In this document: positions 7,494 through 26,246 of the stretch, in pieces
Numbering within the stretch: the stretch's first letter is position 1
Layout: each line of letters starts with the position of its first letter
From: Prolixibacter bellariivorans ATCC BAA-1284
GTDB lineage: Bacteria; Bacteroidota; Bacteroidia; Bacteroidales; Prolixibacteraceae
Direction: 5' to 3'
Length of the DNA stretch: 64,000 nt
Assembly: GCF_000621705.1 (NCBI RefSeq)
Contig: NZ_JHXO01000008.1
Location: 248,001 to 312,000 of the forward strand
Notes under the pieces: generated by a model
Told to the model about the DNA's origin: nothing
Database searches by the model: none
What the model saw: the letters and a program-made list of their open reading frames with translations, nothing else
Position numbers and translations under genes: made by a program

Positions 7494-7517
7494 AGAGAAG
7501 TAGCGTGCTACGTCTCT
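7494..7517. repeat. Dispersed palindromic repeat, copy 1
   Basis: AGAGAAGTAGC followed by GCTACGTCTCT forms a near-perfect palindrome. It belongs to the same family as 8950-8971, 10374-10395 and 20740-20761 (core GAGACG...CGTCTC), and is adjacent to CATAG. Confidence 0.7.
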
Positions 7518-8971: not shown

Positions 8972-9090
8972 TACCATGGACCACCACAACATTGGCCTTT
9001 TTCGTACCTTCCCTATTCAATTCCGAAAAAAAGATGCAGCCGGGTGTAATAATCCGCGATGCAAGCCACTAAACAAAGAAAAGAGAAAAG

Positions 9091-9582: not shown

Positions 9583-10195
9583 AACCATTTGGAAAGAGGG
9601 CTTTTTAGAAGCGGATGCTTTGGTGGCCCCGAAATTAAATAACCTGTACACGCAGAAATCAATCCACATCGTCGATAAGTTCAAGCGGATGTTTCGCAAT
9701 AACCTTCGGGGCATTGTGATTGGGGCTATCGTTATCCTGGGCCTTTCTTTTGTGGTTGGCATACCGGTCATGGGCATCATGCTATTGTTGATTGCCGGCG
9801 CCATAGTGTTGGTCAATCGCATATTGCAGAAAAGGTTAATCGAAATCAACCCGAATGTGAGCAGCTACGAGTACGTCAAATCGTTTGACCATTGGTTGAA
9901 CGAGCAAATTGACATCAACGCCAGGATGGCCCGTTTTTATTACCCTTTCATCTTTCTGTCGATGGTTATGGGTTTTTGGTTCTCCGATTACCTCCCGTTG
10001 ATAACGAGTCACCTTCCTTCCATTTATTTGGTCAACGGAATCCCGGTATTTTGGCTGTTGGGTGTGCTCATCATCATGGGGATACTCTACGCTGTTGGCG
10101 GAAGGCTATACAAATGGGACCTGCAGATTGTATACGGCCGGGTATTGAAAAAGCTGGATGAAATCCTTTCGGATATGGAGAAACTCAGGGCTTGA
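9566..10195 (+). CDS. Membrane protein coupled to the ECF sigma factor (putative anti-sigma/regulatory partner)
   Basis: 209 residues, starting inside the 3' end of the sigma factor gene. It has an N-terminal soluble stretch of about 45 residues, two adjacent hydrophobic segments (GIVIGAIVILGLSFVVGI and the following GIMLLLIAGAIVLV), a central polar segment, and two more membrane segments, ending in a charged helix. There is no zinc-binding anti-sigma motif (HxxxCxxC), so the anti-sigma role is inferred only from the overlap and membrane location. I recognise no specific family. Confidence 0.7.
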   Translation: MEKSIETIWKEGFLEADALVAPKLNNLYTQKSIHIVDKFKRMFRNNLRGIVIGAIVILGLSFVVGIPVMGIMLLLIAGAIVLVNRILQKRLIEINPNVSSYEYVKSFDHWLNEQIDINARMARFYYPFIFLSMVMGFWFSDYLPLITSHLPSIYLVNGIPVFWLLGVLIIMGILYAVGGRLYKWDLQIVYGRVLKKLDEILSDMEKLRA

Positions 10196-10212
10196 TTTCA
10201 TCCGTTTGTTTT

Positions 10213-10317
10213 GCTACGCATACGGCGTGCATTGCTAAACGTCCGGAGCGAGCTGCTACAGGTCGGTCGTGTGTTGCTACGCGTTGGTTATGCTTTGCTA
10301 CCGGGCAGTTAACGGAA
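10213..10317. repeat. Five-unit degenerate tandem array, exact 21-bp period
   Basis: GCTA recurs at 10213, 10234, 10255, 10276 and 10297, exactly 21 bases apart. Units share GCTAC, a GG near the middle and a GC-rich end, but are otherwise diverged. The minus strand reads through as a heptapeptide-like pattern (VAKHNQR, VATHDRP, VAARSGR), which simply reflects the 21-base period. The array lies just after the sigma-partner gene and about 55 bp before a palindromic repeat copy. Confidence 0.7.
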
Positions 10318-10373
10318 ACATGAAGCTGTACAGCAAAATGAACACTGAGTTGGAGGAAACAGCTCACCCCATG

Positions 10374-10395
10374 GAGAAGCAAAACATTGCGTCTC
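10374..10395. repeat. Dispersed palindromic repeat, copy 3 (degenerate)
   Basis: GAGAAGCAA, four bases, then TTGCGTCTC-like sequence (ATTGCGTCTC), followed by TACCATG. The left arm has one mismatch against copy 2. Confidence 0.6.
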
Positions 10396-10490
10396 TACCA
10401 TGTGCCATTCCTATTTGAACTGCTAACACAGTTTTTTGAACACTCTCAAAAACTCACGAGTAGTCTTTCGAAACACTTGCAAGAGCAAGG

Positions 10491-11990
10491 TTAGAATTTC
10501 TTTGCTTTTAAATACCCTTCAATATCCGGATTCTTTCCTGTTGCATTTTCAATTCTGTTCTGCCACGGAATTAGTTCTCCGTTTTGCCATAGTTTATCCA
10601 CCAGAAATTCTCCCGCCTGTTTATTCAGGTAATACTTTTTCCCGAACTTCTTTTTCAGGAACTGATGTATCTGCCATGAAATTATATCCGCAAAGAGATA
10701 ATTTTGCTCGTAGACGGGGTAAGAAACATAGGAAATCATAATCAGGTTTGGTTTTTTAGAGAAATCCATATCAACGAAGAGATACTTTTTGAATAATTCG
10801 TGTTTGATTTCAGCAGCCGATTTCGTAGGATCTTTGTATAATTCAATTTCAAACAGGCTATTGACCAGTTTATACCTAAGATAAAAAGCAGCCAAAAATT
10901 TCTTCTCGTTTGCAATGCTGTCTATTTGAGACTTTGTATAACCATACTTCTTCAGATAAAACGGGACATCCGAGAATTTTGCAACAGTTTCAGCCATACC
11001 TTCATAATACATACTGGGAATATTTCCCATGCACCATTCATATCCCTTCAGTACCGGAGACTTCATTTTTACATGCGTCCATTGCAACCCATGACCAATT
11101 TCGTGAAGCAGGTAATAAAAGCTCAACTCCTTTCTGGCAACAGCCCGGGAATCGTTTGGAATTTCGATAGCATCTCCAAAACCACCCAGTCCCGGAGGCA
11201 GTTTCCTGAAAGTAAACCGAATGGGCAGTTTGTTCATGTCAATACCGATATTATTCAGGATCATTTCCAGGAACTGTTGCTTTTCTTCGTTCTTAACCAG
11301 ATTTAAATCCGTTAAATGATCGGTTTTGATAAGATAGGGCCTGATATCAGCATACTCAACATTGTTTTGAGTTCTATTGATTTTTGAAAGGAAATGGACA
11401 TACCCTTGACGCGTTTCCAGATCAATGAGATTTATTATTTTTTCGAACCATACGGTATCAATCCCGGTATTCTGCAATACCATATAGGCATAATTCCCGT
11501 ATCCCAGGCTCTTTGCCTTTTCATTCCTGAGATGAATAAGCTTTTCAATTTCACTCTCTGTTTTTTTACGCTCTTCTACACTTGCACTATAATCGTGGTG
11601 AGACAATTTTTTCTCCAATTTACTTTGCAGCCTGATAATTTTCGGATCAAAATTCACCTGAGCCGTAGTAACAATTTTATGCCATAGCTCCACTCTCCTT
11701 CGCAGCGTATCATTTTTGATGCTATTGATATTATGATACCATTGAGAAATATTATTATTTAGGACCGCATCGCCAAAGAATTTCATGAATTTTTCTTTCG
11801 ATTGATCCTGACCCGACCAGTCTGGGTTGGTATAAGAATTCCAGACCTCGAGTCCCTTTTCCATACAGAGTTTTTCATACACTTTCTCCTTCTGGTTCAA
11901 ATATTCGGCGATGGTTTTATCCGGAGCATTCACTGTTGAAGACAGGAACAGGCCCAAGGCTATTAATATGATAGTTTGTGATTTTTTCAT
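10491..11990 (-). CDS. M2/M3-like zinc metallopeptidase (gluzincin)
   Basis: 499 residues from the ATG at 11990. The frame opens at 12014, but the signal peptide starts at MKKSQTIILIALGLFLSS. The zinc site is clear: HEIGH at residues 296-300, with the third ligand probably Glu in YEGMAETVAKF downstream. Overall size, the all-helical look and the HExxH...E order resemble peptidyl-dipeptidase A (M2) relatives, though identity is remote, so M3-like remains possible. A secreted or periplasmic peptidase is inferred. It is the last gene of a leftward five-gene run, 10 bp after the hydrolase gene. Confidence 0.75.
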   Translation of the reverse strand: MKKSQTIILIALGLFLSSTVNAPDKTIAEYLNQKEKVYEKLCMEKGLEVWNSYTNPDWSGQDQSKEKFMKFFGDAVLNNNISQWYHNINSIKNDTLRRRVELWHKIVTTAQVNFDPKIIRLQSKLEKKLSHHDYSASVEERKKTESEIEKLIHLRNEKAKSLGYGNYAYMVLQNTGIDTVWFEKIINLIDLETRQGYVHFLSKINRTQNNVEYADIRPYLIKTDHLTDLNLVKNEEKQQFLEMILNNIGIDMNKLPIRFTFRKLPPGLGGFGDAIEIPNDSRAVARKELSFYYLLHEIGHGLQWTHVKMKSPVLKGYEWCMGNIPSMYYEGMAETVAKFSDVPFYLKKYGYTKSQIDSIANEKKFLAAFYLRYKLVNSLFEIELYKDPTKSAAEIKHELFKKYLFVDMDFSKKPNLIMISYVSYPVYEQNYLFADIISWQIHQFLKKKFGKKYYLNKQAGEFLVDKLWQNGELIPWQNRIENATGKNPDIEGYLKAKKF

Positions 11991-12024
11991 TTGGTTTAAT
12001 TTTTTGATGAGCACTCATCAAACA

Positions 12025-13620
12025 TCATTTAATTCTCTGAATTATATCCTTCCAATCTACCCTCACCAGATTTAAGTCCTGAAAATCAAAACTAAAATCG
12101 ATATTGGGGGAAATTCCTTTCATTTTAATGGAAGTAGCTTTGCCCTCTGTGTCATAGTTAAATGTTGCGAATGCATCGCATGGCATGTCCGTGTAGTTCC
12201 ATTTTACAGCAAAGGTTGTGGTTTTGTAATAAAACATTTGTCCGGTTAATTTTGGAGACCGAAGAGATTGAAACCATAATTCATCACCTTTTTCAAAAAT
12301 GGCTACTCTTCCAAACCAATGATCTTCATAGGTTCCAATGTAGTCATTGAAGTTGATGTGTTTTGTCTTTGATTTTTCAACGGTTTTCCAAACAGCAACA
12401 CTAACTGAATCGACATTACTTTTTGTCGATTTTAGTGCCCGGTCGGCTAATGTGATCCAGTCTTTCTTTTCAACACCCAAATAGGAATCCATGATTGCCC
12501 GGGTTAACGTAATATGACTTAACCCGCCCGGTTGTGTATTTGTCAAAACAACTACTCCTAAATTTAACTCCGGTATGATGGTCGTTTGCGAAAGCATGCC
12601 CGGTAAGCCTCCCCCGTGTGATAAAGTGATGTAACCACAATAATCAGCGATCTTCCATCCCAGACCGTATGCAACGAAATGATTTCTATATCGTTTATCA
12701 GGTACCACTTTAAAACTTATGGGGGTATATGGTTTCCACATCTCTTGCTGAACAGTTTGTGAGAACAATTGCTTTTCTTGGTTCTCACCATATTTTCCGT
12801 TATTCAATTGCAACATCAGCCACTTGCTCATGTCGTTTGCACTTGAATAAATTCCTCCTGCAGCATTGGTTAATTCATGCGAATAGCTGTTTATTTTTTT
12901 CAATGTTCCGTTTTGAGAACTATGAGGTAACGCTAAATTGTTTTTATTCACCAGTGTTCCGAATGATGGCGCCGAATTGTTCATTCCCAAAGGGGATAAT
13001 ATTCTTGCTTGAATAAAATCGGTATAGGCTGATCCGCTCACTCTTTTAATCACTTCCCCGGCAACGATATACAATAAATTATCATAATCGAACCGGGTTC
13101 GGAATTCGCTTACCGGTTTCTGAAACTGAAAACTTTTGATGACATCCTGTATTGTAAAATCGCTGCCGCCGGGGTAAATCATCAGGTCACCGGCACCAAG
13201 TCCCAGTCCGCTGCGATGCGTCAGTAAATCACGGATGGTGAAGTGTTCTGTAATATAGGGATCATACATTTTAAATTCGGGGATATACTGAACTACTTTA
13301 TCGTCCCATGATAATTTATTTTCATCAACCAAAATGGCCAATGCAGCCGAAGTAAAACCTTTGGTATTTGATGCAATGGCGAAAAGTGTGTTTTCATCGA
13401 CTTTTTGTCCGCTTTCAACGGATACGACACCATATCCTTTTGAATGAATTACTTTCCCATCTTTAACTACAGCAACAGCTATTCCTGCCTGTGGCAGCGA
13501 CTCGAAAGTCTTATGCACCAATGAATCTATTTGGGCACTTGTTAACCTCTGAGATTTTAGGATAGCACTTGTCCCCAATAACAGATAAAACGCTAATATG
13601 TATGACAAATACCTTCTCAT
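12025..13620 (-). CDS. Serine hydrolase, beta-lactamase class C / penicillin-binding type
   Basis: 531 residues with a signal peptide. The catalytic SxxK is SNTK in FAIASNTKGFTSAAL. The Tyr of the YxN motif sits in FDYDNLLY, and the third motif is LSHGGGLPG (HGG). The C-terminal 130 residues form a separate beta-rich domain (FNDYIGTYEDHWFGRVAIF) like DUF3471. Such proteins hydrolyse D-amino peptides, esters or beta-lactams; the substrate cannot be told from sequence. It is 73 bp downstream of the CPBP gene in the same run. Confidence 0.88.
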   Translation of the reverse strand: MRRYLSYILAFYLLLGTSAILKSQRLTSAQIDSLVHKTFESLPQAGIAVAVVKDGKVIHSKGYGVVSVESGQKVDENTLFAIASNTKGFTSAALAILVDENKLSWDDKVVQYIPEFKMYDPYITEHFTIRDLLTHRSGLGLGAGDLMIYPGGSDFTIQDVIKSFQFQKPVSEFRTRFDYDNLLYIVAGEVIKRVSGSAYTDFIQARILSPLGMNNSAPSFGTLVNKNNLALPHSSQNGTLKKINSYSHELTNAAGGIYSSANDMSKWLMLQLNNGKYGENQEKQLFSQTVQQEMWKPYTPISFKVVPDKRYRNHFVAYGLGWKIADYCGYITLSHGGGLPGMLSQTTIIPELNLGVVVLTNTQPGGLSHITLTRAIMDSYLGVEKKDWITLADRALKSTKSNVDSVSVAVWKTVEKSKTKHINFNDYIGTYEDHWFGRVAIFEKGDELWFQSLRSPKLTGQMFYYKTTTFAVKWNYTDMPCDAFATFNYDTEGKATSIKMKGISPNIDFSFDFQDLNLVRVDWKDIIQRIK

Positions 13621-13693
13621 CCGATTCTGATTTTAATTTATCATCGACTTTGGCCTCATCAGGCTCATGACAGTCAATGTTGTAATGATGGTG

Positions 13694-14533
13694 CTAACCT
13701 TGCCTTTTTTGATCCATCCATTTCCAAAACAGATATCCCACGATTAAATAGACTATAGCCGTTAAAATCCCGGTTTCGGAAACGATATAAGATGTGTATT
13801 TTGTTTTAACTGTCATTTCCCAAAACATCGACATCAATATCACATTATGACTTGAATGGACTAAAACTCCTGTCCATAAACTTTTTGATTTGGAAATCAA
13901 TGTTGTTTTTATGAATGAACTCCCTATCAAAACCAGTGAGAAACCGGGCAAGGCAATCCACAACGGCGCATTAAATCCATAAATTCCGCCAATCATGGCC
14001 GGATAGTGCCAAACCGACCACACCAACCCAACGATGATACTTGTAACAGGAACGGATTTAGACTTTAACAGCTTGGGAGTCAAAAAACCCGACCAGCCAA
14101 TCTCCTCACCCAGTGTTAGAATACTAAGAGAAAAAGTATACAGCACTGCTTTAGCTGTAAAACCCACCCAAAAAGGAGCCGGTGTTTCAAACCCTACATA
14201 TCTGGCCCATCGGTAATTTTTCACCTCATCCAGAGTGATATCGGCCATGCCTGTTATCCATACAATACCATAGGCAATAATGGCTACAATAAAAGGCAAT
14301 ATGTAAGCCCACCCCAGATATTTAAGCTTTCCCGGCTTCCATCCATAACTCTTAATATTTTCGCGCGTTATGATTGAGGCAAGCAAGGCCGAAATTCCCG
14401 GAACCCACATCATCAGCATGGCAATGCGACGTTTGTTTGGCAAATCGTTAAACATCCAGATAAAGACACCAGTCGTGAGCAGGAGCAAGACGATAAAAAA
14501 TACTTTTAGCTGATGTTTGGTTTCCTTATTCAT
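13694..14533 (-). CDS. CPBP family intramembrane glutamic endopeptidase
   Basis: 279 residues with about eight hydrophobic segments. Motif 1 of the CPBP (CAAX protease/bacteriocin-processing) family is LGEEIGWSGFL, with the paired glutamates. Motif 2 is VWSVWHYPAMIGG, and motif 3 is LVHSSHNVILMS with the His and Asn. Family members are membrane proteases, some linked to peptide processing or self-immunity. It is 18 bp from the amidase gene upstream and sits within a run of hydrolases. Confidence 0.88.
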   Translation of the reverse strand: MNKETKHQLKVFFIVLLLLTTGVFIWMFNDLPNKRRIAMLMMWVPGISALLASIITRENIKSYGWKPGKLKYLGWAYILPFIVAIIAYGIVWITGMADITLDEVKNYRWARYVGFETPAPFWVGFTAKAVLYTFSLSILTLGEEIGWSGFLTPKLLKSKSVPVTSIIVGLVWSVWHYPAMIGGIYGFNAPLWIALPGFSLVLIGSSFIKTTLISKSKSLWTGVLVHSSHNVILMSMFWEMTVKTKYTSYIVSETGILTAIVYLIVGYLFWKWMDQKRQG

Positions 14534-14551
14534 CTTTATTGCCTTTTATCC

Positions 14552-15970
14552 TTATGGTAATATCCGATTTAACACATAAGTCCCGTAATTATTTTCTATT
14601 CCGGCCATGGTTGCTTTCATTTGTCCCCCATCAAAAACAGACTTTATTTCAATTAATGTTCCCCCTTTTGTTTTAAAAGTAAACTTCACTTTATTTCCAG
14701 CTAAACTTAGGTTGTCCATTGCATAAATGTCTCTTCCATTAGAAACACTTCCCGTTATTGCTTCACCATTTGATTCAAATTTGAGAATAATGTCCATTTC
14801 TTTTTTCAATTTATCCGGCATATTCTTCCATTCCCCTTTGAAAAACTGTGCTTCAGCAGTTTTTGCATAATCCGAATGGGAAGAAGTTCGTTGAGCATAT
14901 TCTTCCAAAGTAAGACCTCCTCCGGTAAAAAATTTAGCTGGTAATTCGGGGATTAAGGAAAATATGAATTTTTCCGTGAAGTTTTTCATCCTTTCATTGG
15001 TAAAAGGTTGCAATTCCGCATACATGTTTCCACCTTCCTTCATATCAATATTAGCTATCAGGGTAGGTGAATTATTAGAGAAGTCAACCTGATCCATAGA
15101 CAGCTTCTTAATCTCAGGATTGATTCTTGTTTTAAAATAAACCGTCCGGCTTCTTACATCAAACAAAACTGACCATTCAGGTACATCATCAACCATCAAT
15201 TGATCAAGCATTTTCAGGCCGTAATCCACGATATTTTCATCAGGATTGTAATCCCGTGTCATCACAGCAGTTTTGACAAAGCGTGGTACTTTCGAATCGT
15301 TTAAGTCAGGTTCATAATCTCCACCGAACCCTTTGTAATACCTTAAAATATCCATTTCTCTTGCGTAAGGTTCATTAAAAAGTCCCGGAACAGGCATGTC
15401 CTTACCCTTATGTACCACTACTTTTCCTTTAATAAACTCTATCGCAGCCGTATTCCCCTGTGCATCACCCACAAAATAATGCCATCCCCATCCGTCAATT
15501 TCAAATTCCGAAGCCGTTTTAATGGCCTCATCGGTCGTTCTGCAATTGTCTAATATGTATTGCATCCAGTTCATCTGGTTGAGTTTTGGCAAATCCTTAT
15601 TTTTTGGATATTGCGTATCATCATTCATTTCCCAGATAAACAGTCCCTCTTCGTTCATGCCGCCGTCGGGGAGATCTCTTCCAAAAGTGTTAAATGTAAC
15701 GGAACCATAGCGCGAAATCCAGGCAAAAGAAGACGGATTCGACTGCTCTTTGGTGAAAATTTCACTCCATGTACGCCCCGTTTTAAATATTCCCCTTTTG
15801 TTTACAAACAGGAGCCCGGGAACCCCAATATCTCCTTCATTCAGGTTATGCCCGTAAACGAGTTTTTTCCCTTTCTGGAGTTTAAAAGAGGAACAAGCTC
15901 TTGCCTGCTGATTATAGCTAAAGGAGATTACCAGTAAAAGCAGTATGAATAGATTCAGTTTAGGTTTCAT
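14552..15970 (-). CDS. Ntn-hydrolase amidase (penicillin V acylase / C45-like)
   Basis: 472 residues. A signal peptide ends at ARA, leaving Cys as the new N-terminal residue (ACSSFKLQKGKKLVYGHNL). This is the expected layout of a linear-amide C-N hydrolase in which the exposed Cys is the nucleophile. The YGHNLNEGD segment and the later NPSSFAWISRYGSVTFNTF fit the choloylglycine/acyl-transferase fold. A C-terminal domain of about 110 residues (GEWKNMPDKLKKEMDI onward) looks like a separate beta domain. The substrate is unknown; acyl-homoserine lactones, bile salts or lipopeptides are handled by relatives. Confidence 0.82.
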   Translation of the reverse strand: MKPKLNLFILLLLVISFSYNQQARACSSFKLQKGKKLVYGHNLNEGDIGVPGLLFVNKRGIFKTGRTWSEIFTKEQSNPSSFAWISRYGSVTFNTFGRDLPDGGMNEEGLFIWEMNDDTQYPKNKDLPKLNQMNWMQYILDNCRTTDEAIKTASEFEIDGWGWHYFVGDAQGNTAAIEFIKGKVVVHKGKDMPVPGLFNEPYAREMDILRYYKGFGGDYEPDLNDSKVPRFVKTAVMTRDYNPDENIVDYGLKMLDQLMVDDVPEWSVLFDVRSRTVYFKTRINPEIKKLSMDQVDFSNNSPTLIANIDMKEGGNMYAELQPFTNERMKNFTEKFIFSLIPELPAKFFTGGGLTLEEYAQRTSSHSDYAKTAEAQFFKGEWKNMPDKLKKEMDIILKFESNGEAITGSVSNGRDIYAMDNLSLAGNKVKFTFKTKGGTLIEIKSVFDGGQMKATMAGIENNYGTYVLNRILP

Positions 15971-16068
15971 ATCTAATTTTTTATAGAATGAGTGTTATAT
16001 GATAAGACAGTCATTTTTCATGACATGTTACACGCTTTTAGTCATTTATAATCAATCCAAACGAAACC

Positions 16069-18702
16069 TTAATTCAAAAACCGATAGGACAATTTGAGCA
16101 GAATAACATCTGTTGGCGTTATCTTGAATAAATCGGAAATATTTTTGCTAAAATCAAATGTACCATCCGCATTAGCACCTGTTCTGGACTGCGACCAAAC
16201 CAGATACAGTACGGAACCCGCATGGTATTCCCAGCGCAATACCAGATTTGACCGAAATTGTTTAAAGTTAAAGTTGGGATTACCAAAGCTGTAATCCGTT
16301 TGTCCGGTACCATTTTCGCTGATATTATACAGCATGTTTCCGGCCGAATAAGATATTTCATCCGGACGATATGTATGGAACCTGTCGGAATACGAAGCAG
16401 CCATTGGATGGGTGACCCGCTTAAACGTATCATACAGTCCGCCACTGATGAATGGCGATGCATAATATTGCAGCGTCAAATCGGGTGTGATACTATAATC
16501 AGCCCGGATGGTCACATAGAATGATTCCTGTTTGATGTGTGACACAATGTACCGCGGTTCTCCTTCATAACTTTTCTGAGTGACATATTGCAAAGCGTTG
16601 GACACATAATCATAGGTCGGAGAAATATAAAACATCAAAGCATTGGCGGGACGGTAAGTAACACTGGATATCAGCGTTGTATTACGTCCGGCCTTATCGT
16701 CAAACAAAGCTTGCCAGATAGCCGCTCCCAACCTCACCTTCTTGGTACGGCTGGTATGCGCCATCACCAGGTATTCAAAATAGCCGGGGCGTTTCAGTGA
16801 CGGCCCGCCACGCAAAGTCGCCCGCTGAATATTTTCGCCGGTCCGGGAAAGCTGAAGGTTTAAGTTCCAATGGTTGGTAAATTCAAAGTACCCTGATGTG
16901 TTTATACTGTACATTTCCCTTCTTCTGAAATTCCAGACGGTGCTGACATCGGCATTTAAATCGACGAGCCTGAAAATAGAAAACGGTTTAGAGATAATAT
17001 ATTCTGCCCAGATATCCTGAAAGACATAATCCGACTTTTTCAGGTAACCGATATCGTTAGTCTCAAATCCGGGCGAACGCCAGGTGATAAGAGTTCCGTA
17101 GTTAAAGCCTTTGTTACCACCTTTGGAAAACATAAGAGAGCCGCCTGAGCCTATCATGGAAGTAAGTGTGGTATCCACCGAGTGCGCCGCATCCGGACTT
17201 TGATAATAACGCCTGGAAGACAGCTGCTGATACAGCATGGCTTCCTTACTGCCCGTAATGTGGCTCGTGGCAAGTTTGGCTGTCAGCGCATATTTCCGGT
17301 TTTTAAAATACTGGGTAAAATCGAGTCCGGCTGTAGTGGCTGACGTGTTGAGAAAATTCAGGTTGTCGTTTTCAATGTTTCTGTAAACGGAAGTCACCAT
17401 TCCTCCCAGAATCGTATTTCCCTGGTTCATATCCTTCTGAAGCCTGGTCAGGAAATAATTGGAGGCAGGCTCCACGGTTTCTTTCCTCCTTTCGCCATGG
17501 TTGTCGATAGTGGCCCTTTCTTTTTTGGTCACGTTTTCCATGACAGCGACCGACCATCCGTTCTTGGTTTTCCCGCTGAGCTTAACAGCGCCGAGAATCT
17601 TTGTCCTTTCCGGCACGGAAACATATTCACCTGCCGTGTAGCTAGGAATTCCCTGAGGTGCACGGCCTATTCTTCGCGAATAAAACAGGTTATCCTGAGT
17701 GGCAATGTCAAAATTGAAATTCGTGATGTTACTACCCTCGATAAAAAAGGGACGTTTTTCATCGTAATACGTTTCAAATGCCGTGAGATTCACCACGGAA
17801 GGATCGGCTTCAACCTGGCCAAAATCAGGATTAATGGCGAAGTCGATGGTGAGGTCGTTTGTTAAACCGATTTTACCATCAACGCCGGCATCAAATTTAA
17901 AATCGCGGCCATCGGCAAAAGGATTTCCATCCTGTTTTTCATAAGTAGTCATTTTGCTCATCACATAGGGAGCTATTTCCACCGACTTCCTGGCTTTGAT
18001 TTTATGAATTCCTTTCAACTTTCCATAATTGTTTATCCACCCCGAAAGGCTGTCGGGAACATTTTGCCAGGTGTCGTATTCCTGGTTCCTGAAAAAGAAG
18101 CGCTTCACCTGCAGGCCCCAGGTCATTTCGTCGGCGTTATTGAATCGTAGTTGGCTGACCGGAATCTTCATTTCCGCGTTCCACCCGTCATTAACGACCT
18201 GTGTTTTTACTACCCAGATGGGATCGGGAGTCAAATCAGCGACCCCATCTTCGCGGACAATTACCCCGTCGTTTTTCACCCCGGCTGCATTCACCCCGAA
18301 AATAAAGCTGGTGCGTTTGTCGTTGTAGCTATCGAACTCAATGGTCACGCGATCGCCTGTTTCGCCATCCCGGCGCGACATCCTTCGGACAATTTTATCC
18401 GGCTCGTTATCGTAGCATTTTATGGCTACGTAAATAAAGTTGTTGTCGTAATACAACTGAAATGCCGTTTGTTGCGAAGGCGCCTTGCCATTCTCGGGAC
18501 TTTTCTGAAAAAAACCGCTCTCCCATTTTCCCGTTTTCCAAAGTTTATCATTAAAAACCCCATCGACAACAGGAATGTCTTTCGTGATTCTTTCAGTCAC
18601 ATACATTTTATTCTGGGCAATTCCATGATCCAATCCGATGCTTAACACCAGCAACAGAAGAGCTGTCATCTTCCTGGCCAATCCATGAATGTTTATTCTC
18701 AT
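16069..18702 (-). CDS. DUF5916 protein with N-terminal CBM9-like domain
   Basis: 877 residues. A signal peptide (LARKMTALLLLVLSIG) is followed by a CBM9-like beta domain (PVVDGVFNDKLWKTGKW, FIYVAIKCYDNEPDKIVRR). The remaining 600 residues contain the DUF5916 core (LTIDFAINPDFGQVEADPS, EKRPFFIEGSNITNF, NLFYSRRIGRAP) and an outer-membrane-like beta barrel ending in ILLKLSYRFLN. The family is common in Bacteroidota, with unknown function. It is the first gene of the leftward run and divergent from the LytS/LytTR pair. Confidence 0.88.
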   Translation of the reverse strand: MRINIHGLARKMTALLLLVLSIGLDHGIAQNKMYVTERITKDIPVVDGVFNDKLWKTGKWESGFFQKSPENGKAPSQQTAFQLYYDNNFIYVAIKCYDNEPDKIVRRMSRRDGETGDRVTIEFDSYNDKRTSFIFGVNAAGVKNDGVIVREDGVADLTPDPIWVVKTQVVNDGWNAEMKIPVSQLRFNNADEMTWGLQVKRFFFRNQEYDTWQNVPDSLSGWINNYGKLKGIHKIKARKSVEIAPYVMSKMTTYEKQDGNPFADGRDFKFDAGVDGKIGLTNDLTIDFAINPDFGQVEADPSVVNLTAFETYYDEKRPFFIEGSNITNFNFDIATQDNLFYSRRIGRAPQGIPSYTAGEYVSVPERTKILGAVKLSGKTKNGWSVAVMENVTKKERATIDNHGERRKETVEPASNYFLTRLQKDMNQGNTILGGMVTSVYRNIENDNLNFLNTSATTAGLDFTQYFKNRKYALTAKLATSHITGSKEAMLYQQLSSRRYYQSPDAAHSVDTTLTSMIGSGGSLMFSKGGNKGFNYGTLITWRSPGFETNDIGYLKKSDYVFQDIWAEYIISKPFSIFRLVDLNADVSTVWNFRRREMYSINTSGYFEFTNHWNLNLQLSRTGENIQRATLRGGPSLKRPGYFEYLVMAHTSRTKKVRLGAAIWQALFDDKAGRNTTLISSVTYRPANALMFYISPTYDYVSNALQYVTQKSYEGEPRYIVSHIKQESFYVTIRADYSITPDLTLQYYASPFISGGLYDTFKRVTHPMAASYSDRFHTYRPDEISYSAGNMLYNISENGTGQTDYSFGNPNFNFKQFRSNLVLRWEYHAGSVLYLVWSQSRTGANADGTFDFSKNISDLFKITPTDVILLKLSYRFLN

Positions 18703-18947
18703 CTTCGGGTAAGGTTAGTTTGTTTTCTTTACCATGCAGACCATGACATCCGGCTCAAAACCAGTCGCATGTCATTCTGGTCCTAAACAAAGGGAAAATA
18801 GTATCGTCAGAAAACAAAACGAAATCAACCAACAGCCGGAAACACTTTGCCTGTTATGGAAGCGGATTTCATTGATTGATTCACGGAGCTTGTTGAAAGA
18901 ATTCGGTGACTTGTATAATATATGGAAACGAAAGCGAGAATATTGTA

Positions 18948-18955
18948 TATTTTTG
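18948..18955 (+). promoter_or_regulatory. Candidate -7 box for the LytS/LytTR operon
   Basis: TATTTTTG is a perfect match to the Bacteroidota TAnnTTTG box, 35 bases before the ATG at 18990. No good -33 TTTG is visible at the usual spacing. Confidence 0.45.
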
Positions 18956-18989
18956 AGACTAACGACTTAATGTACCTAAACGTTGCTTG

Positions 18990-20033
18990 ATGATATTCAA
19001 CAGGGAAATAAATGTCTCGGACCGGCAAATCAGGCTAATGGCACCTGTCATTTTCTGGGCGCTGATTTTTTTGGTGAAAATGATCAGAGTATTCCCATTC
19101 TACGAAGGTCCCAGCCTGACCGAGCACCTTGAAACGATTGTCATTACAACCAGCCTTGAATTGATTCCCTTTTGTCTGTTTTACTTTTACCTGATCCCGC
19201 AATTGTTTTCAAAGGGAAGGATGTTTTGGTATGCCGTCCTCCTTTCCGTTCTCTTTCTGGCCTCGTTTGGTTTTGTGTGGGGGTGGGTATATTATTACCG
19301 GGGAGTTGTAACAAGCCATCAGGAGCAAATGGTGATTTACAAAGCCAGCCTCGGACACAATATTCTGAGTGTTTTGTATGCTTTTGTTCTGGGATTTACC
19401 GTTGAATGGCTCGAGCAGTTCAGAAAACAAAAAGAAATCACCGAGAAGCAAATCCGCTCGGAACTGGCGTTGCTCCGCTCACAGATCAATCCGCATTTTC
19501 TGTTTAATACCCTGAACAACATTAACTCCTTTTCGGGAAGCAATCCCGAAAAAACGTCCTTTGCCATCATCAAGCTGTCGGAAATCATGCGGTACATGTT
19601 ATACGATGCCAGAGATGAACTGGTGCCGCTGGAAAAGGAAATTGCCTACATCCGTAACTATCTTTCGCTGCAGCGGCTCCGTTTCCGAAACCCGGAGTTC
19701 GTGAAGTGTGATATCAGCGATGAAACGGGTCACGTTATGGTTCCCCCGCTGTTGTTTATCACGTTTATCGAAAATGCATTCAAACACGGAAAGACCAGTA
19801 TGACCAATAGCATCGGGATTAAGCTGCGTGTAACGCAAAGCACCATTCATTTCGATTGCATGAATCACATCCGCAACAAGAGCAATACGGAAGAACAGGC
19901 AGAAGGAGGCATCGGGATTGAGAATACCAAACGAAGGCTGGAATTATTGTTCCCCAAGCGACACCAGCTGTTGATAGAAAACGACGGACAGGTTTTTCAC
20001 GTTCAACTAAAAATCCGACTCAATGAAAATTAA
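18990..20033 (+). CDS. LytS-type sensor histidine kinase
   Basis: 347 residues from the ATG at 18990 (a TTG one codon earlier is ignored). Four N-terminal membrane segments lead through a short coiled coil to the His_kinase domain: LRSQINPHFLFNTLNNINSF with phospho-acceptor His169, then the ATPase N-box FIENAFKHG and G-box GGIGIENTKRRL. This is the short 5TM/LytS class that partners LytTR regulators. Its 3' end overlaps the regulator gene by 11 bases, so the two are a cotranscribed two-component pair. The signal is unknown. Confidence 0.93.
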   Translation: MIFNREINVSDRQIRLMAPVIFWALIFLVKMIRVFPFYEGPSLTEHLETIVITTSLELIPFCLFYFYLIPQLFSKGRMFWYAVLLSVLFLASFGFVWGWVYYYRGVVTSHQEQMVIYKASLGHNILSVLYAFVLGFTVEWLEQFRKQKEITEKQIRSELALLRSQINPHFLFNTLNNINSFSGSNPEKTSFAIIKLSEIMRYMLYDARDELVPLEKEIAYIRNYLSLQRLRFRNPEFVKCDISDETGHVMVPPLLFITFIENAFKHGKTSMTNSIGIKLRVTQSTIHFDCMNHIRNKSNTEEQAEGGIGIENTKRRLELLFPKRHQLLIENDGQVFHVQLKIRLNEN

Positions 20034-20733
20034 TTGTATTGTCATCGACGATGAGGTCCCCGCCATCGAATTGATGGAGAACTATATTTCCAGGGTTCCG
20101 TTTCTGCATTTGCTGAAGAGTTTCGACAATGCGATTGAGCCCATTAATTACATTCAGTCGAATCAGGTGGATGTGATATTTCTGGACATTGAAATGGAGG
20201 GCTTCACCGGGCTTCAGTTTATCAAGGCACTGAAGCACAAACCACAAATTATCCTGACCACGGCCTACGACCGGTATGCTATCGACGCCTTTAATCTGAA
20301 TGTGACAGACTATCTGCTTAAGCCCATTTCGTTCGAGCGTTTTATTCAGGCTATCGACAAGTTGTTCGATATATTTACGCAAAACAGGCCCCCGGTGGCA
20401 GAACCCAATCAGTACCGTAAAGATTATTTCTTTGTAAAAACAGAATATCGCATGCAGCGCGTTGATTTTGATGATATCCTATATGTGGAAGGGATGAAGG
20501 AATACCTGCGCATCCATACGAAAACAGAGAAAATTATGATTCTGGAAAGTTTCAGGAACATCATGGAAGCGCTTCCCCGTGATAATTTTTTCAGGGTGCA
20601 TAAATCATATATTGTCGCCATCAATAAGATTGACAGTGTCGAAAAAAACCGGATCACCATTGGCGAAACAAGCATCCCAATCAGTGATACCTACAAGGAA
20701 TCGTTCCTGATTATGCTGAAACAAAACAGTTAG
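20023..20733 (+). CDS. LytTR family response regulator
   Basis: 236 residues. An N-terminal receiver domain has the acidic pair in CIVIDDE, the phosphorylated Asp55 in VIFLDIEMEGF, and Lys in YLLKPISFERF. The C-terminal LytTR DNA-binding domain contains RVDFDDILYVEGMKEYLRIH, NIMEALPRDNFFRVHKSYIV and NRITIGETSIPISDTY. It overlaps the kinase gene. The obvious candidate target is the divergent hydrolase/DUF5916 run, inferred from position only. A palindromic repeat follows 6 bp after the stop. Confidence 0.95.
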   Translation: MKINCIVIDDEVPAIELMENYISRVPFLHLLKSFDNAIEPINYIQSNQVDVIFLDIEMEGFTGLQFIKALKHKPQIILTTAYDRYAIDAFNLNVTDYLLKPISFERFIQAIDKLFDIFTQNRPPVAEPNQYRKDYFFVKTEYRMQRVDFDDILYVEGMKEYLRIHTKTEKIMILESFRNIMEALPRDNFFRVHKSYIVAINKIDSVEKNRITIGETSIPISDTYKESFLIMLKQNS

Positions 20734-20739
20734 TACGTG

Positions 20740-20761
20740 GAGACGTAGCATGCTACGTCTC
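20740..20761. repeat. Dispersed palindromic repeat, copy 4 (perfect)
   Basis: GAGACGTAGCA and its exact complement form a 22-bp perfect palindrome, followed by TACCATAG. It starts 6 bases after the response-regulator stop, so it may also act as its terminator. The 21-bp repeat array begins immediately after it. Confidence 0.85.
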
Positions 20762-20779
20762 TACCATAGACTGTAGCCG

Positions 20780-21425
20780 TCAACGCTGCCCTGGAAGCGC
20801 TCAAGCCTACCGGAGAAGTCATCAACAGAACCCAGGAAACGATCAACACGGGTCGGGAAGCCGTCAACGCTACCTCGGAAATGCTCAAGCCTGCATCAGA
20901 AGCCGTCAGGACTACTCCGGAAGTCCTCATGACTACTTCCAGAATCATCAGGACTACTTCAGAAATGCTCAAGGCTACTCCGTAAGTGTTCAACACAACT
21001 TCGGAAACACTCAAGGCTACTTACGAAATGCTCAAGCCTGCATCAGAAGCCGTCAGGACTACTTCGGAAGTGCTCAGGACTACTTACAGAGCCGTCAGGA
21101 CTACTTTCAAAGTCATCAGGACTACTTTCAGAGCGGTGAGAAGTAGTCCTGACGAAAATTTAACCTGTCCTGACGGGTTGGTCACTCGCCCTGAAGCCTC
21201 TCGTAGTGTTCCTGACAGTTTTTTTATCCTTCCTGACGACTTCTTTACCTTTCCTTAAGGCTTCCACTCCTGCCCTGACGGTTTCGCATCCTCTCCTAAA
21301 CACTTTTCCGGTTGTCCTTAAGCCTTCGCATGTTCTCCCAAAGACTTCTGCAGTTGTCCTGACGAGTTCCCGGGTGCTCCAGAAGGCTTCGGAAGTTGTC
21401 ACAACCACTTACCCGGTTGCACCAA
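20780..21425. repeat. Giant inverted array of 21-bp degenerate tandem repeats (31 units)
   Basis: The forward arm (20780-21136) has 17 units, each starting with TCA or a close variant at exact 21-base steps. Its consensus begins TCAGGACTAC and ends GGAAGTGC. The reverse arm (21132-21425) has 14 units with the same consensus on the minus strand, again at exact 21-base steps. The two arms meet head to head at a perfect 12-bp hairpin. A 39-bp exact direct repeat occurs at 20878-20916 and 21025-21063, 147 bases (seven units) apart. Frames are interrupted by stops (for example TAA at 20983), so I treat the array as noncoding. Function is unknown. Confidence 0.9.
21116..21152. repeat. Apex hairpin of the inverted array
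   Basis: TCAGGACTACTT (21116-21127) and AAGTAGTCCTGA (21141-21152) are perfect complements with a 13-base loop. This marks the switch between the two array arms. Confidence 0.9.
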
Positions 21426-21616
21426 GAACATGTGATGGCTGAATAATTTTTTTGTTAACTTGGGTGAGACTTAAGAATCAATCAAACGAAGGCGGAAATC
21501 AAAGATTCAACATAACAAGTACACAATACATTCCTATGTAGATAAAAAAACCGATGCACATTCATATTATCAACACAACATACAGAGCAATCTCAGTAAC
21601 CTAAAATCAGATAGAA

Positions 21617-23890
21617 ATGATAAGGAAGATCAATAAAATTAAAAATTTTGGGATATTTCAAAACTTCGCTTGGAATGGTTTAAACGATTTCAAAAAGAAA
21701 AATCTGATTTACGGTTGGAATTATTCAGGAAAAACAACGCTGTCAAAGCTCTTCCAAAACCTTGAGTTTAAGGATAAGAATAAATATTTCTCCGGTTCAG
21801 AGTTTGACCTAACAACTGAAAAAGGAAATACAACTACAACTCATACTCAAAATGATTTAGAAGCTTTCCCCTATGCTGTAAAAGTCTTCAATACCAATTA
21901 TATCAGACGGGTTTTTACATTTGACGAACCTAACTCTGATATTCAACCAATATCATTTTATCTTGGTGACCCATCGGGTGAATTAGACAAAAAAATTAAG
22001 AAATTAGATAAGAATAAAGGTCAATTAGAAAATATTAGAGACAACCGCTATCAAGAGATAGTTGATGAATTTGGGAAATATGACAAGAAAACAGGAAGCA
22101 AGTTTACTGATAAAGCAAAGGACATAAGAGAGAATTATTTAGACGGCAAACTGACAAGAGATGATTTTAATATTTCACATTTTAGAAAAATTACTGGTCG
22201 TGTAAAAAATGATCTACCTAAATACATTTTATCAAATACAGAAAGAGATAAAATAAAAGCAGATGCTGTTGTAACAAAAGACTTCGAACCACAAAATGAA
22301 GATTATAATTTTTCTGAAGGCCTTGAAACACTTGCGGAAAAGGTAAAAACTATTTTAGAAGATACCGCACCAAAATCAATTCCCTTTCCTGAGTTGGACG
22401 AGAATCCAGCGTTATTTGACTGGGTTCAAAAAGGTATAAAACTGCACGAAGGAGAAACAGAATGTAAATTTTGCACGAAAACCTTACCTCAAAACAGAAT
22501 TAAGGATTTAAACTCATACTATTCTAAAAAACTTACAGAAATTCAGGATTCAATTGCAAACACACAAGAAAAGATAGAAGCTGAAAAAGAGAAGTTGAAA
22601 ATCACATTTCCAGACAAAAAAAACTTGGGAGGTGGTTTTCAGCCAGATTATCAAAAAGCGATAGATAATTACAGTGAAACTGCGAAGAAGTATAAAACCC
22701 AACTTTCTATCTTAGAGAAAGATTTAAAACGAAAATCCTCTGATTATTTCAATGATATTCCCGTAACTGAAATTGAAATTATTTCCTTTAAAGAGGATTT
22801 TAAGGAAATAAAGAAAGCAGTAAAAGCTCATAATGATTGGTTAGCAGAATTTGACGATAATAAGAAAAAAGCTTTAGATAAAATTTTAAATCATTATGTC
22901 GCAGAATATTTACAAGCCGAGGATTACAACAAGAAAGAATCAGATAAAGACGAAGCTGTAACAATTATATCAAATATCAACTCTAAAATTACAACAAATA
23001 AAGCTGAAAAATTAGCTCTTGAAGCACAGTTGAAAAGTAGCGTGAAAGGTCAGAAAGAATTAAATGATATTTTAGAAATATTACTTCATCGAAACGACAT
23101 CAAAATCGAAATCAAAAATGATATATTCACGCTTGAAAGAAGTGGACACCCTGCGAGTAATTTGAGTGAGGGTGAAAAATCAGCAATTGCTTTTGCTTAT
23201 TTTCTAACAGAACTTAAAGCACTTAGAAACGATGCCCCTCCCAAATTGCCAAACACTATTGTTTTTATTGATGATCCGATTTCAAGTTTGGATAGTAATC
23301 ACATTTTTCAAGTGCGTTCGTTATTGCAAACTTTTTTCAAAGAAGAAAACTACGCTCAATTATTTATTTCAACACACAATTTTGAGTTCTTTTCAGTTAT
23401 GTTGGATACGAACTTATTTGGAAGTAAAAACAAAGATACAAATGGAAATAAACGTCCACTATATTTCATAAAAAGAAATGACAATAACTCATCTGAGATA
23501 AAAAAACTACCTCTTTCTTTTAGTTCTTATAAATCTGAATATGTCGGTCTATTCCATACGATTAAGGAATTTAATGAATTAGCAGATAAAGAAGATTTTA
23601 CAAATTTGTTAATTCTTCCTAATGCTGTTCGTAGATTTCTTGAACTATACACTCTTATGAAATATCCGAGTGATTCAGAAGTTGATAATAGAATAAAAAA
23701 AGTATTTAATCCAGAAGATAAACCTACTTATAATACAAAATTATTGCATTGGTTTTCACATCAAAATCAATTCGAGAAAGTACAACAACACGATGATAAA
23801 ATACTACAATTAGAAGATGCCATAAAAGAACTACTTGAACATATTGAAACGAAAGATGAATTACATTGGAAAGGGCTAAATGGAGAATAA
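21617..23890 (+). CDS. RloC-like AAA_13 ATPase with zinc hook, candidate anticodon nuclease
   Basis: 757 residues. The ATPase is an ABC/SMC-type head split by coiled coils: Walker A GWNYSGKTT (33-41), signature LSEGEK (516-521) and Walker B IVFIDDP (548-554). Between them is a long lysine/glutamate-rich coiled coil with CKFC at 283-286, a zinc-hook-like CxxC as in RloC. The C-terminus has LPNAVRRFLELYTLMKYP with Arg672 and Glu676, then His711 or His715, resembling the Arg-Glu-His active-site order of PrrC/RloC anticodon nucleases. RloC is a DNA-damage or phage-responsive tRNA-cutting protein. The gene is strongly AT-rich compared with its neighbours, suggesting acquisition by transfer. No restriction-modification genes are nearby. 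The AAA_13 call is firm; nuclease activity is inferred. Confidence 0.8.
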   Translation: MIRKINKIKNFGIFQNFAWNGLNDFKKKNLIYGWNYSGKTTLSKLFQNLEFKDKNKYFSGSEFDLTTEKGNTTTTHTQNDLEAFPYAVKVFNTNYIRRVFTFDEPNSDIQPISFYLGDPSGELDKKIKKLDKNKGQLENIRDNRYQEIVDEFGKYDKKTGSKFTDKAKDIRENYLDGKLTRDDFNISHFRKITGRVKNDLPKYILSNTERDKIKADAVVTKDFEPQNEDYNFSEGLETLAEKVKTILEDTAPKSIPFPELDENPALFDWVQKGIKLHEGETECKFCTKTLPQNRIKDLNSYYSKKLTEIQDSIANTQEKIEAEKEKLKITFPDKKNLGGGFQPDYQKAIDNYSETAKKYKTQLSILEKDLKRKSSDYFNDIPVTEIEIISFKEDFKEIKKAVKAHNDWLAEFDDNKKKALDKILNHYVAEYLQAEDYNKKESDKDEAVTIISNINSKITTNKAEKLALEAQLKSSVKGQKELNDILEILLHRNDIKIEIKNDIFTLERSGHPASNLSEGEKSAIAFAYFLTELKALRNDAPPKLPNTIVFIDDPISSLDSNHIFQVRSLLQTFFKEENYAQLFISTHNFEFFSVMLDTNLFGSKNKDTNGNKRPLYFIKRNDNNSSEIKKLPLSFSSYKSEYVGLFHTIKEFNELADKEDFTNLLILPNAVRRFLELYTLMKYPSDSEVDNRIKKVFNPEDKPTYNTKLLHWFSHQNQFEKVQQHDDKILQLEDAIKELLEHIETKDELHWKGLNGE

Positions 23891-24046
23891 AAAAGTATGT
23901 TCACTTAATTCGTATAAGTAATGACAAGGGAAATACTAAATATCAAGGCTTGTAGCAGCCTCAAACAACATAGCTGTTTGACTATAAAGAACCGCGCACT
24001 CTGCCACTATTTATACTATTTGCCTTTACAATAAGCTTACTAAACA

Positions 24047-24583
24047 ATGAAAACACTCTTCATACAAATCTTTATAGCGACTTTTTTATTTACCAACCAT
24101 ACGTTTCAACAAGGGAAACAAAAGGATGATTTAAGTACTCTGAGAATAGTGAATATTAGAGACACTTTAATAATCGCTTTCCAGGGAACAGATTGTGGTG
24201 AATGGGGAGGTCATCGAGAAACGATTTATTTGCAAAGAAATAAAGAGCGTAAAATAACAGCCAGATATCTAAAAGACACGGTTCCTTGCGATATTGTTGA
24301 GAAACACGGAATCGGTGTTCTTGATGATGCTAAAAGGGAGGTCATTGTCGATACTTCGAAAGTCCTGAATACAGAAGAAGAAAGACAAATAAGTAATTTC
24401 ATTAAAAGAGTTTCTGAACTGTACATTGAGGGAGGAAATTGGTATTGGAATTTTGGTGATTATTATACAATTAAAAATACGAATGGAACATTCCTGTTAC
24501 ATTATTGGAATAGCGGAAACAACAGGGAAACTGGCTATCACAATATGATAAAAAAGATTTTTCAAATAACACACAAAAAATGA
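24047..24583 (+). CDS. Hypothetical exported protein
   Basis: 178 residues with a signal peptide (MKTLFIQIFIATFLFTNHTF). The mature part has GTDCGEWGGHRETIYLQR and a C-terminal YTIKNTNGTFLLHYWN segment, with two Cys that could pair. No family is recognised. It is AT-rich like the ATPase gene 156 bp upstream, and its stop overlaps the next start (ATGA), so the two small genes are coupled. Confidence 0.6.
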   Translation: MKTLFIQIFIATFLFTNHTFQQGKQKDDLSTLRIVNIRDTLIIAFQGTDCGEWGGHRETIYLQRNKERKITARYLKDTVPCDIVEKHGIGVLDDAKREVIVDTSKVLNTEEERQISNFIKRVSELYIEGGNWYWNFGDYYTIKNTNGTFLLHYWNSGNNRETGYHNMIKKIFQITHKK

Positions 24584-24933
24584 AATACAGAGAACTAACA
24601 ATCCTGGTTATCTTACTTCTCACCATTGCGATTTTCTCGTCATTCACTCAGCAAAAAGAGGAAAGGGTAAAAATAACGAAACAAAATCTGATGGGTGCTT
24701 ACGGAGGTGACGAAGAAACGGAAAACGCCTATTTCGGAATTTATAAAGATTCCATCTACTATCCCGACTCCAACATTTGGATAAAATACCAATTAAAAGG
24801 CGACACGATTGTTATAACAAATTATGACAACTCGATTGAAAAGCTTTTAATACTAAAACTGACGACTGATTCTCTTGTTGTAAATAACCTAAACTACGAC
24901 ATGGAGAATCACTTAAACAGACGAACCCATTAA
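24580..24933 (+). CDS. Hypothetical exported or membrane-anchored protein
   Basis: 117 residues. An N-terminal hydrophobic segment (TILVILLLTIAIFSSF) is either a signal peptide or an anchor. The remainder is a small beta-rich domain (ENAYFGIYKDSIYYPDSN, IKYQLKGDTIVITNYD) resembling generic lipocalin-like Bacteroidota proteins. The start overlaps the preceding stop by four bases. No function is assigned. Confidence 0.6.
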   Translation: MKYRELTILVILLLTIAIFSSFTQQKEERVKITKQNLMGAYGGDEETENAYFGIYKDSIYYPDSNIWIKYQLKGDTIVITNYDNSIEKLLILKLTTDSLVVNNLNYDMENHLNRRTH

Positions 24934-24986
24934 GTTCTGACAAAAAGAAGAATTAAATGATAAAACTGACAACTAATTGACTGCAA

Positions 24987-25367
24987 ATGATTGATGTAAA
25001 TTCGAATAAATTTTGGTATACATTTTCGATAATCGGGGTAATTATTTTGGGAATAACTGTTGCAATAATACAAACATGGACAGATAGGCAGTATGAAATT
25101 GTAGACACCGAAACAATGATAAATAGTAAAATATCAAAATGCAGACCTGATCATGGAGCAAGTTACGTTGAACTGACAAATAAAAGAAAAATCCTCATCC
25201 CACAATGCACAAATTATTCATATTCTAAATCTGGATTATGTGACATAATAAAATCAGGAGACTCCATCTATAAAAAAGAAAATAATGACACAATAATTAT
25301 TTTAAAGAATCATCAGAAATTTATTTTTACGGTCGGAAAAGCTCTAAATGTTCCAAATTGGAAATAA
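24987..25367 (+). CDS. Hypothetical single-pass membrane protein
   Basis: 126 residues. One N-terminal membrane segment (TFSIIGVIILGITVAIIQT) is followed by a polar domain with three Cys (ISKCRPDHG, LIPQCTNY, SGLCDII). It is AT-rich and lies 53 bp after the previous small gene, so it is the last member of the AT-rich insert. No family is recognised. Confidence 0.55.
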   Translation: MIDVNSNKFWYTFSIIGVIILGITVAIIQTWTDRQYEIVDTETMINSKISKCRPDHGASYVELTNKRKILIPQCTNYSYSKSGLCDIIKSGDSIYKKENNDTIIILKNHQKFIFTVGKALNVPNWK

Positions 25368-25439
25368 AGCTTAAGTTGCTAACCATTTGTCACATGACAG
25401 GCGGACGATTTTAAGTTCGACAACTGAATCTTTACACAC

Positions 25440-26246
25440 ATGAAAAACTTCGAAGGAAAAACGGCATTGATCACCGGAGGCGCTTCCGGCATCGGGAAAC
25501 TGATGGCCGGCATCCTGTTGGATCAAAAAGCCCGGGTCATCATCTGGGACCTCAACCCCGAAGGAATTGATGTAACCATTGGGGAGTTGTCTGCCCGCGG
25601 TTCCATTGCCGGTTACCGGGTGGATGTGGCCAATGTGGAGCAGGTCAAAGAGACCGCTCAAAAGGTAAAGCAGGAACACGGTGTGGTGGATGTGCTCATC
25701 AACAATGCCGGTATCGTGGTTGGGAAGTATTTTCACGAACACACCACCAGCGACATCCTGAAAACCATGGAGGTCAACACCAACGCCCCCATGCTGGTTA
25801 CCCGGGAGTTCCTGGGCGATATGATGAAGCAAAACTCGGGGCACATCTGCAACATTGCCTCATCGGCCGGGATTGTTTCCAACCCGAAAATGGCCGTGTA
25901 TGCCGCCAGTAAATGGGCCGTTACCGGTTGGTCGGACAGTCTGCGCCTGGAAATGAAACAGCTCAAAAAGAATATCGGCGTCACCACCATTATGCCCTAC
26001 TACATCAACACCGGCATGTTCGACGGGGTGCAATCACGCATCCCGATTCTGAAACCCGAACCGACGGCCCGCCGAATCATCAAAGCCATGAGAAAAGGGA
26101 AAAAGATGGTTACCTTCCCGCGGTACATTTACCCGCTGACCCGCATCAGTCAGGGGCTGTTTTCGACCAATGGCTTTGACTGGCTGGCCAGTAATGTATT
26201 TGGAATTTATAAAACAATGGAGCATTTTAAGGGACGCAAATCATAA
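25440..26246 (+). CDS. Short-chain dehydrogenase/reductase
   Basis: 268-residue Rossmann-fold oxidoreductase. The cofactor motif is TGGASGIG near the N-terminus, NNAGIV follows the fourth strand, and the catalytic Ser and YAASK (Tyr, Lys) are present. The C-terminal part (ISQGLFSTNGFDWLASNVFG) resembles the membrane-associated retinol dehydrogenase-like SDRs, which act on lipophilic alcohols. It is 18 bp upstream of an aldehyde dehydrogenase, so the pair could oxidise a fatty or aromatic alcohol to the acid. Base composition returns to the window average here. Confidence 0.92.
   Translation: MKNFEGKTALITGGASGIGKLMAGILLDQKARVIIWDLNPEGIDVTIGELSARGSIAGYRVDVANVEQVKETAQKVKQEHGVVDVLINNAGIVVGKYFHEHTTSDILKTMEVNTNAPMLVTREFLGDMMKQNSGHICNIASSAGIVSNPKMAVYAASKWAVTGWSDSLRLEMKQLKKNIGVTTIMPYYINTGMFDGVQSRIPILKPEPTARRIIKAMRKGKKMVTFPRYIYPLTRISQGLFSTNGFDWLASNVFGIYKTMEHFKGRKS

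Follow-up and report, generated by a model that had tools for sequence, protein, structure and literature searches.

The 31 units of 21 bp that occupy a non-coding intergenic stretch of the window (the whole 64-kb piece of DNA that was analyzed) lie in two opposed arms and are well supported as an inherited, dispersed, two-armed intergenic minisatellite of Prolixibacter. The minisatellite lengthens and shortens in steps of whole 21-bp units and drifts by substitution, keeping its register through the arms and the center. Our best reading overall, which we hold tentatively, is that of a dispersed minisatellite held in helical register and serving as a phased DNA platform. Genomes are labeled G and loci L; G000 is the own genome, G001 a congener, and G002 Prolixibacter denitrificans DSM 27267.

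Architecture of the array

Unit starts fall at 20764, 20785, and so on to 21121 in the F arm, and from 21148 to 21400 in the R arm, with no slip of register within either arm (18 and 13 units, respectively); the earlier note's claim of an exact 21-bp register over 31 units in two opposed arms is thus confirmed. The perfect 12-bp hairpin that it placed at the junction of the arms is also there, the pair being TCAGGACTACTT at 21116-21127 and AAGTAGTCCTGA at 21141-21152. The local match at a lag of 21 bases peaks at 0.67; in 40 copies of the 64-kb window generated by a first-order Markov model, the maximum was 0.374. Identity between units averages 0.61 in the + arm, 0.52 in the - arm, and 0.50 between the arms in register, compared with 0.16-0.34 for units taken out of register. 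In the window-array family, the strongest columns are T and A within the TCA core, together with one A of GAA. A CRISPR array was rejected: the 21-bp units have no constant repeat, and column identity in the window arms averages 0.66-0.72.

A conserved end box, absent from the earlier note's description, sits just outside the - arm; it was found on one side of the array only, and no terminal inverted repeat was noticed. Allowing up to two mismatches, a search of 118 genomes of the phylum (a draw that did not include G001 and G002) found the box in the own genome only. Features of the array and of its surroundings are collected in Table 1; the left-edge palindrome and the second array are likewise absent from the earlier note.

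Table 1. Positions of the array, its neighbors, and related features
Feature	Sequence	Position	Strand	Remarks
Second, degenerate 21-bp array, 5 units	window	10209..10313	+	core TTGCTAC; 10 kb upstream of the main array
Upstream gene, LytTR response regulator	window	20023..20733	+	stop ~31 bases ahead of the array
22-bp perfect palindrome, REP-like	window	20740..20761		GAGACGTAGCATGCTACGTCTC; left edge of the array
F arm, 18 units x 21 bp	window	20764..21141	+	consensus ~ACTACTTCnGAAGTGCTCAAG; TCA(A/G)(G/C) core
Center, junction of the arms	window	21116..21152		perfect 12-bp inverted repeat, 13-base loop
R arm, 13 units x 21 bp	window	21148..21420	-	F-arm consensus on the opposite strand
Conserved end box	window	about 21410..21470	-	CTCACCCAAGTTAACAAAAAAATTATTC...ATGTTCTTGGTGCAACCGGG (- strand letters); common to two loci, three species
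Downstream gene, AAA_13 ATPase	window	21617..23890	+	PADLOC PDC-S06 candidate defence protein
Cargo, end box to short-chain dehydrogenase-like gene	window	21478-25420
Cargo, as above	L047	182-2714
Cargo, as above	L045	868-3412
attC-like site, ~150 bp	L046	175-335
attC-like site, ~150 bp	L043	1740-1896
attC-like site, ~150 bp	L044	578-730
attC-like site, ~150 bp	L048	4608-4739
11-bp array of G013	L101	15000-15113
11-bp array of G013	L102	5164-5308
11-bp array of G013	L109	3855-4015

Orthologs and relatives

BLAST with the + arm against 61 genomes gave matches in G000, at four places in G001, and over 32 bases in G033, the last (L003) being without 21-bp periodicity and taken as chance; there was no match in G003. 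G001 carries four such two-armed arrays, and the end box lies at two loci of G000. G001 L047 is orthologous to the window array, with matching synteny: its outer arm is 87% identical to window 21247-21477 (the part of the R arm concerned is 21247-21420), its other arm is 70% identical to 20782-21035, and its flanks match 8997-10198 and 25420-25601. At the same locus in P. denitrificans (L045, close to a contig start), the end box persists with about two units; beyond this remnant lie a piece of palindrome and then a 21-bp array with core GTAGCAA matching window 10189-10413. The end-box pattern in this species has a match in NZ_PYGC01000007.1. Judged from these alignments, the window array is inherited and has been almost lost at its locus in P. 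denitrificans, and it is therefore dispensable there. At a further place, locus A, arrays with the same end box lie in equivalent positions in G000 (L043), G001 (L046), and G002 (L044). The earlier note had named loss of the arms in close relatives and variation in unit length as findings that would weigh against it: no variation in unit length was seen within the window array's own family, but the arms are almost gone at the one P. denitrificans locus, and G003 gave no match to the + arm.

The second window array is homologous to a 7.9-copy array at G002 L045 404-568. Copies related to the left-edge palindrome lie at about 7493-7517, and others end near 8974 and 10398. Window 10414-20739, a stretch of ~10.4 kb, has REP-like CGTCTCTACCAT palindromes at both ends, and its flanks adjoin each other in G001; for these two reasons, the stretch is probably an insertion in G000. 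The part of it that was searched, 19000-20733, had matches in G001-G003 that were short or weak.

Register and substitutions

With their ends matched, the ortholog arms align over 442 bases with 56 substitutions and a single gap, which is exactly 21 bases, or one unit, long; the three pieces, of 174, 215, and 53 bases, account for 23, 25, and 8 of the substitutions. Unmatched ends gave 59 substitutions in 505 bases, part of which is box, and odd gaps of 1 and 22 that are absent with matched ends. The fourth piece, the 254 bases at 70% identity, has 77 substitutions and no gaps, having been picked by BLAST without gaps. Beyond the box, the intergenic DNA has 67-83% identity and 2-9 gaps per 92-108 aligned bases, its alignment being less certain than that of the arms; divergence is 11-15% in the ortholog arms versus 17-33% in these flanks. 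This pattern of gaps and substitutions supports a putative constraint on register.

The TCA core was not spared in the three outer ortholog pieces, being changed at 6/24, 4/36, and 1/11 positions versus 17/150, 23/215, and 8/69 elsewhere, or 11/71 versus 48/434 when pooled, ~60 bases of those pieces being box. The core was spared in the fourth (inner) piece, with 3/38 changed versus 74/216 elsewhere.

The offset between the arms was computable in seven of the 11 arrays examined, several of which show one clear arm only. It is 12 modulo 21 in five of the seven (the window, L046, L047, L048, and L049), but these five are not independent, as L047 is the window ortholog and the arrays of L048 and L049 are 82-91% alike; L043 has an offset of 13, and L044, where there is no clear opposed arm, an offset of 4. 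Center lengths of 6, 27, 27, 69, and 27 in five arrays are equal modulo 21, which restates the offset. Expansion by whole units is seen as 105-bp blocks in L046, L048, and L049 and as 42- and 63-bp blocks elsewhere. The earlier note's proposal that phase is kept while the letters drift holds up against the ortholog counts, with their single whole-unit gap, and the offset shared by five of seven arrays; its interpretation as a whole is partly supported.

Predicted curvature, computed from dinucleotide wedge values and compared with composition-matched DNA, was ordinary (z=-1.1 in the window; mean z 0.10), two of 20 arrays, L048 and L049, lying above z=2. A 10.5-bp sub-period, hinted at by lags near 52 and 73, was not clear in the pooled fold of 21 arms, which gave 0.27 at 10-11 and similar values at 1, 3, 18, and 20.

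Unit lengths in related genomes

TCAR every 21 bases, four times over, was matched in 116/149 genomes, many of the matches looking coding or like other simple repeats; the search also revealed intergenic arrays with other units. Counts against a reversed control were 37 vs 2 in G000, 75 vs 1 in G001, and 5 vs 1 in G002, with no excess in G003 (9 vs 12).

A less biased sample consisted of 20 stretches of 20 kb each from G001, G031, G013, and G003, all of the same family, scanned with Tandem Repeats Finder (minimum score 80, minimum 2.8 copies, minimum unit 9). Unit length was taken as the shortest accepted sub-period, so that program units of 63, 44, 42, and 82 at L060, L078, L082, and L087 became 21, 22, 21, and 41, respectively. 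In this small survey, in which the periods of G013 differ from the rest, 12 of the 25 arrays labeled intergenic had units of 21, 22, 41, or 42 bp (five in G001, four in G031, three in G003, and none in G013); the remaining units were six of 11 bp, all in G013, and single or paired cases of 23, 24, 27, 66, 66, 99, and 126 bp. The fraction becomes 12/15 once ten arrays are left out: the six of 11 bp from G013, the two of 66 bp, which look CRISPR-like, the one of 99 bp, whose consensus resembles tRNA genes, and the one of 126 bp. Arrays labeled coding were left uncounted, though L067 at least sits between called genes. The controls G169, G181, and G240 (240 kb) yielded four intergenic arrays, of 11, 28, 30, and 32 bp, and thus 0/4 of the lengths in question; a further 400 kb of G181 contained one 42-bp array (L183), which is unlabeled and outside the 0/4.

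Arrays of 41-bp units with 84-91% matches lie at L070 7307-8145, L077 17624-18024, and L137 14997-15219; 41-bp arrays occur in G001 and G003 and also in G031, and 41 is not divisible by three. G013, which belongs to another genus, has intergenic arrays of 11-bp units (CATGGACAAAC, GGTTACCCTTT), seven in a 400-kb sample; one of the seven has exact cores on both strands, and more do so by eye on degenerate copies. On contig C1 of G003, at about 430500-432200 (L059, L191), there is a 21-bp array of about eight copies with 94% matches.

Variable genes beside the box

Genes on the box side differ between species at both loci, with no blastn homology. At the window-array locus (B), the position downstream holds AAA_13/PDC-S06 in G000 and other genes, encoding SEC-C-ended proteins, in G001 and G002; the box side of locus A has small genes without a blastn match to one another. 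attC-like sites are found at locus A and close to L048, and L050 has a partial one nearby; full or partial matches number 12 in G000, 8 in G001, 6 in G002, 1 in G003, and 21 in G031, and there are none in G013 or G181. Folded as single-stranded DNA, the sites are strongly structured (z -2.3 to -5.7). An integron integrase (TIGR02249) scored above the curated cut-off once each in G000, G001, and G002 (three of five genomes searched), weaker matches being present also in all 14 control genomes. Prolixibacter probably has a chromosomal integron whose cassettes are scattered. Half of an attC-like site is matched over 28 bases at window 25377-25404, just before the dehydrogenase-like gene.

That the array itself belongs to integron-cassette machinery, marking together with the end box a site of gene-cassette exchange, we consider very unlikely. 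The unrelated box-side regions, the attC-like sites, and the integrases are as such an exchange would predict; furthermore, DNA resembling that left of the box recurs in G003 next to an integrase-like gene that scored below cut-off, within ~700 bases of the L059 array. However, neither box nor array was matched at the integrase loci of G000-G002, the window holds the half site only, and the other arrays have none in the pieces examined.

Competing explanations

Twenty-one base pairs correspond to seven codons, and a decayed or live heptad-repeat protein gene could draw on long open frames: 152 codons of one + frame through the F arm, 162 codons in L002, and, in L004, a - frame open for 504 bases over most of both arms. 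These frames nevertheless differ between arrays; among the five arrays compared, not one is spanned by a frame and no frame is shared by all; every frame of the whole window element contains four or more stops; and ortholog substitutions counted from the ATGTTC of the box are spread evenly over codon positions (7/7/9 and 12/13/11). The 22-, 41-, and 11-bp units are not multiples of three. The decayed heptad-coding gene proposed in the earlier note was thus rejected, and we give a coding origin next to no weight. The giant transcribed hairpin proposed with it fares better. A two-arm hairpin transcribed 3' of genes, as a REP/BIME-like terminator or mRNA stabilizer, would suit the inverted arms and the positions of the arrays: 16 of 27 lie between tandem ORFs, 7 between convergent, and 3 between divergent ones, with 1 unassigned (orthologs counted separately; flanking ORFs of at least 100 aa, those that are mostly array excluded; three arrays overlap the neighbor's end by 2-37 bases), and of the 16 tandem arrays, 8 start no more than 75 bases past the upstream stop. 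Reversing R units into F units weakened folding in all five arrays tested, and the native order was clearly better in three of them, only 1, 2, and 0 of 30 unit permutations folding as well in L004, L005, and L006. The window is not among these three, as 9 of 30 permutations folded as well, and in L002, 25 did. A hairpin also has no need of a fixed offset over the center, several arrays show one clear arm only, and Rfam gave no match for window 20000-22000 (E up to 1) or for the whole window (gathering scores). A hairpin is possible, but it seems quite unlikely to be what the array is for.

The fixed step could also arise without any function, from a minisatellite whose duplication step favors two or four helical turns and which subsequently undergoes unequal exchange, giving length changes of whole units, the arms dating from one old inversion or template switch. 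We regard this as a possible explanation. Near-identical and probably young arrays are already at such lengths (21 bp at 94% in L059; 41 bp at 84-91% in L070, L077, and L137), unit sequences and cores differ between loci, with other arrays of the family having other cores, the array is dispensable at its P. denitrificans locus, and the core is unspared in three of the four ortholog pieces. Against a pure duplication rule, the drifted ortholog arms lack the small gaps seen beyond the box and are less diverged than the DNA there, and columns are unequally conserved (p<0.05) in 10 of 21 arms. As the cause of the fixed step, a function in helical phase is narrowly favored over a duplication rule. 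A phased platform of this kind would act as double-stranded DNA whose repeats are required to face one side of the helix, and might serve a candidate architectural or nucleoid protein for which spacing matters more than the exact letters; this would also account for the frequent two- or four-turn units in other arrays. The phased protein-binding platform of the earlier note is supported as to register, but its sequence-specific version is weakened by the TCA core, unspared in the three outer pieces though spared in the inner one, and by the other cores elsewhere.

The same reasoning can be extended, though here we are rather doubtful, to a class of elements in Prolixibacteraceae, and perhaps in Bacteroidales widely, that would be read by register, be indifferent to letters, keep a two- or four-turn step, and organize DNA for a putative architectural protein. 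That there are many arrays per genome is based on the five of 21, 22, 41, or 42 bp in 400 kb of G001, or dozens by extrapolation.

Arrays with different letters in one family often share a two- or four-turn step, and between orthologs, the step outlives the letters. Helical turns would thus be counted by a mechanism of duplication, or else spacing would be read by a protein.

Comparison with known elements

Bacterial intergenic minisatellites are mostly used as typing markers. Searched by titles and abstract openings, the literature yielded no helical-turn rule for intergenic arrays and no account of these arrays in Prolixibacter. REP/BIME elements are intergenic, often downstream of genes, and inverted, their REP units being 20-40 bp palindromes in pairs. 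The window array is likewise intergenic with an inverted organization, but it has up to 31 phased units, which are only partly palindromic and make up long arms in inverted orientation. Iteron arrays, ParR/parC among them, consist of helically phased protein sites one to two turns apart; such arrays, however, lie beside a partition or replication gene of one replicon, whereas the Prolixibacter arrays are dispersed and have locus-specific cores.

Porphyromonas gingivalis, like Prolixibacter, belongs to the Bacteroidales. The BrickBuilt MITE of this species is intergenic, with 23-nt units and 19 copies in ATCC 33277, and had promoter activity in an E. coli reporter; the species also has 464/PgRS elements and 22- and 41-nt tandem repeats (PMC4596501). 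BrickBuilt and the Prolixibacter arrays are alike in being intergenic and multicopy, with spacerless tandem units that are gained or lost whole and with non-repetitive ends (PMC4596501); in Prolixibacter, this is seen as whole-unit steps of 21, 42, and 105 bp, the ortholog gap of 21 bp, and several intergenic copies per genome (four two-armed ones in G001). They differ in that the 23-nt units of BrickBuilt lie between a leader and a tail with terminal inverted repeats (PMC4596501), whereas the Prolixibacter array has 21-bp, far more diverged units in two opposed arms with one conserved end box. The 22- and 41-nt units of P. gingivalis match lengths found in Prolixibacteraceae arrays, with no sequence relation shown, and the 22-, 23-, and 41-nt units described in that species (PMC4596501) together suggest that the rule may extend past Prolixibacteraceae. 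These tandem-repeat elements of P. gingivalis are the closest known relatives in kind of the Prolixibacter arrays.
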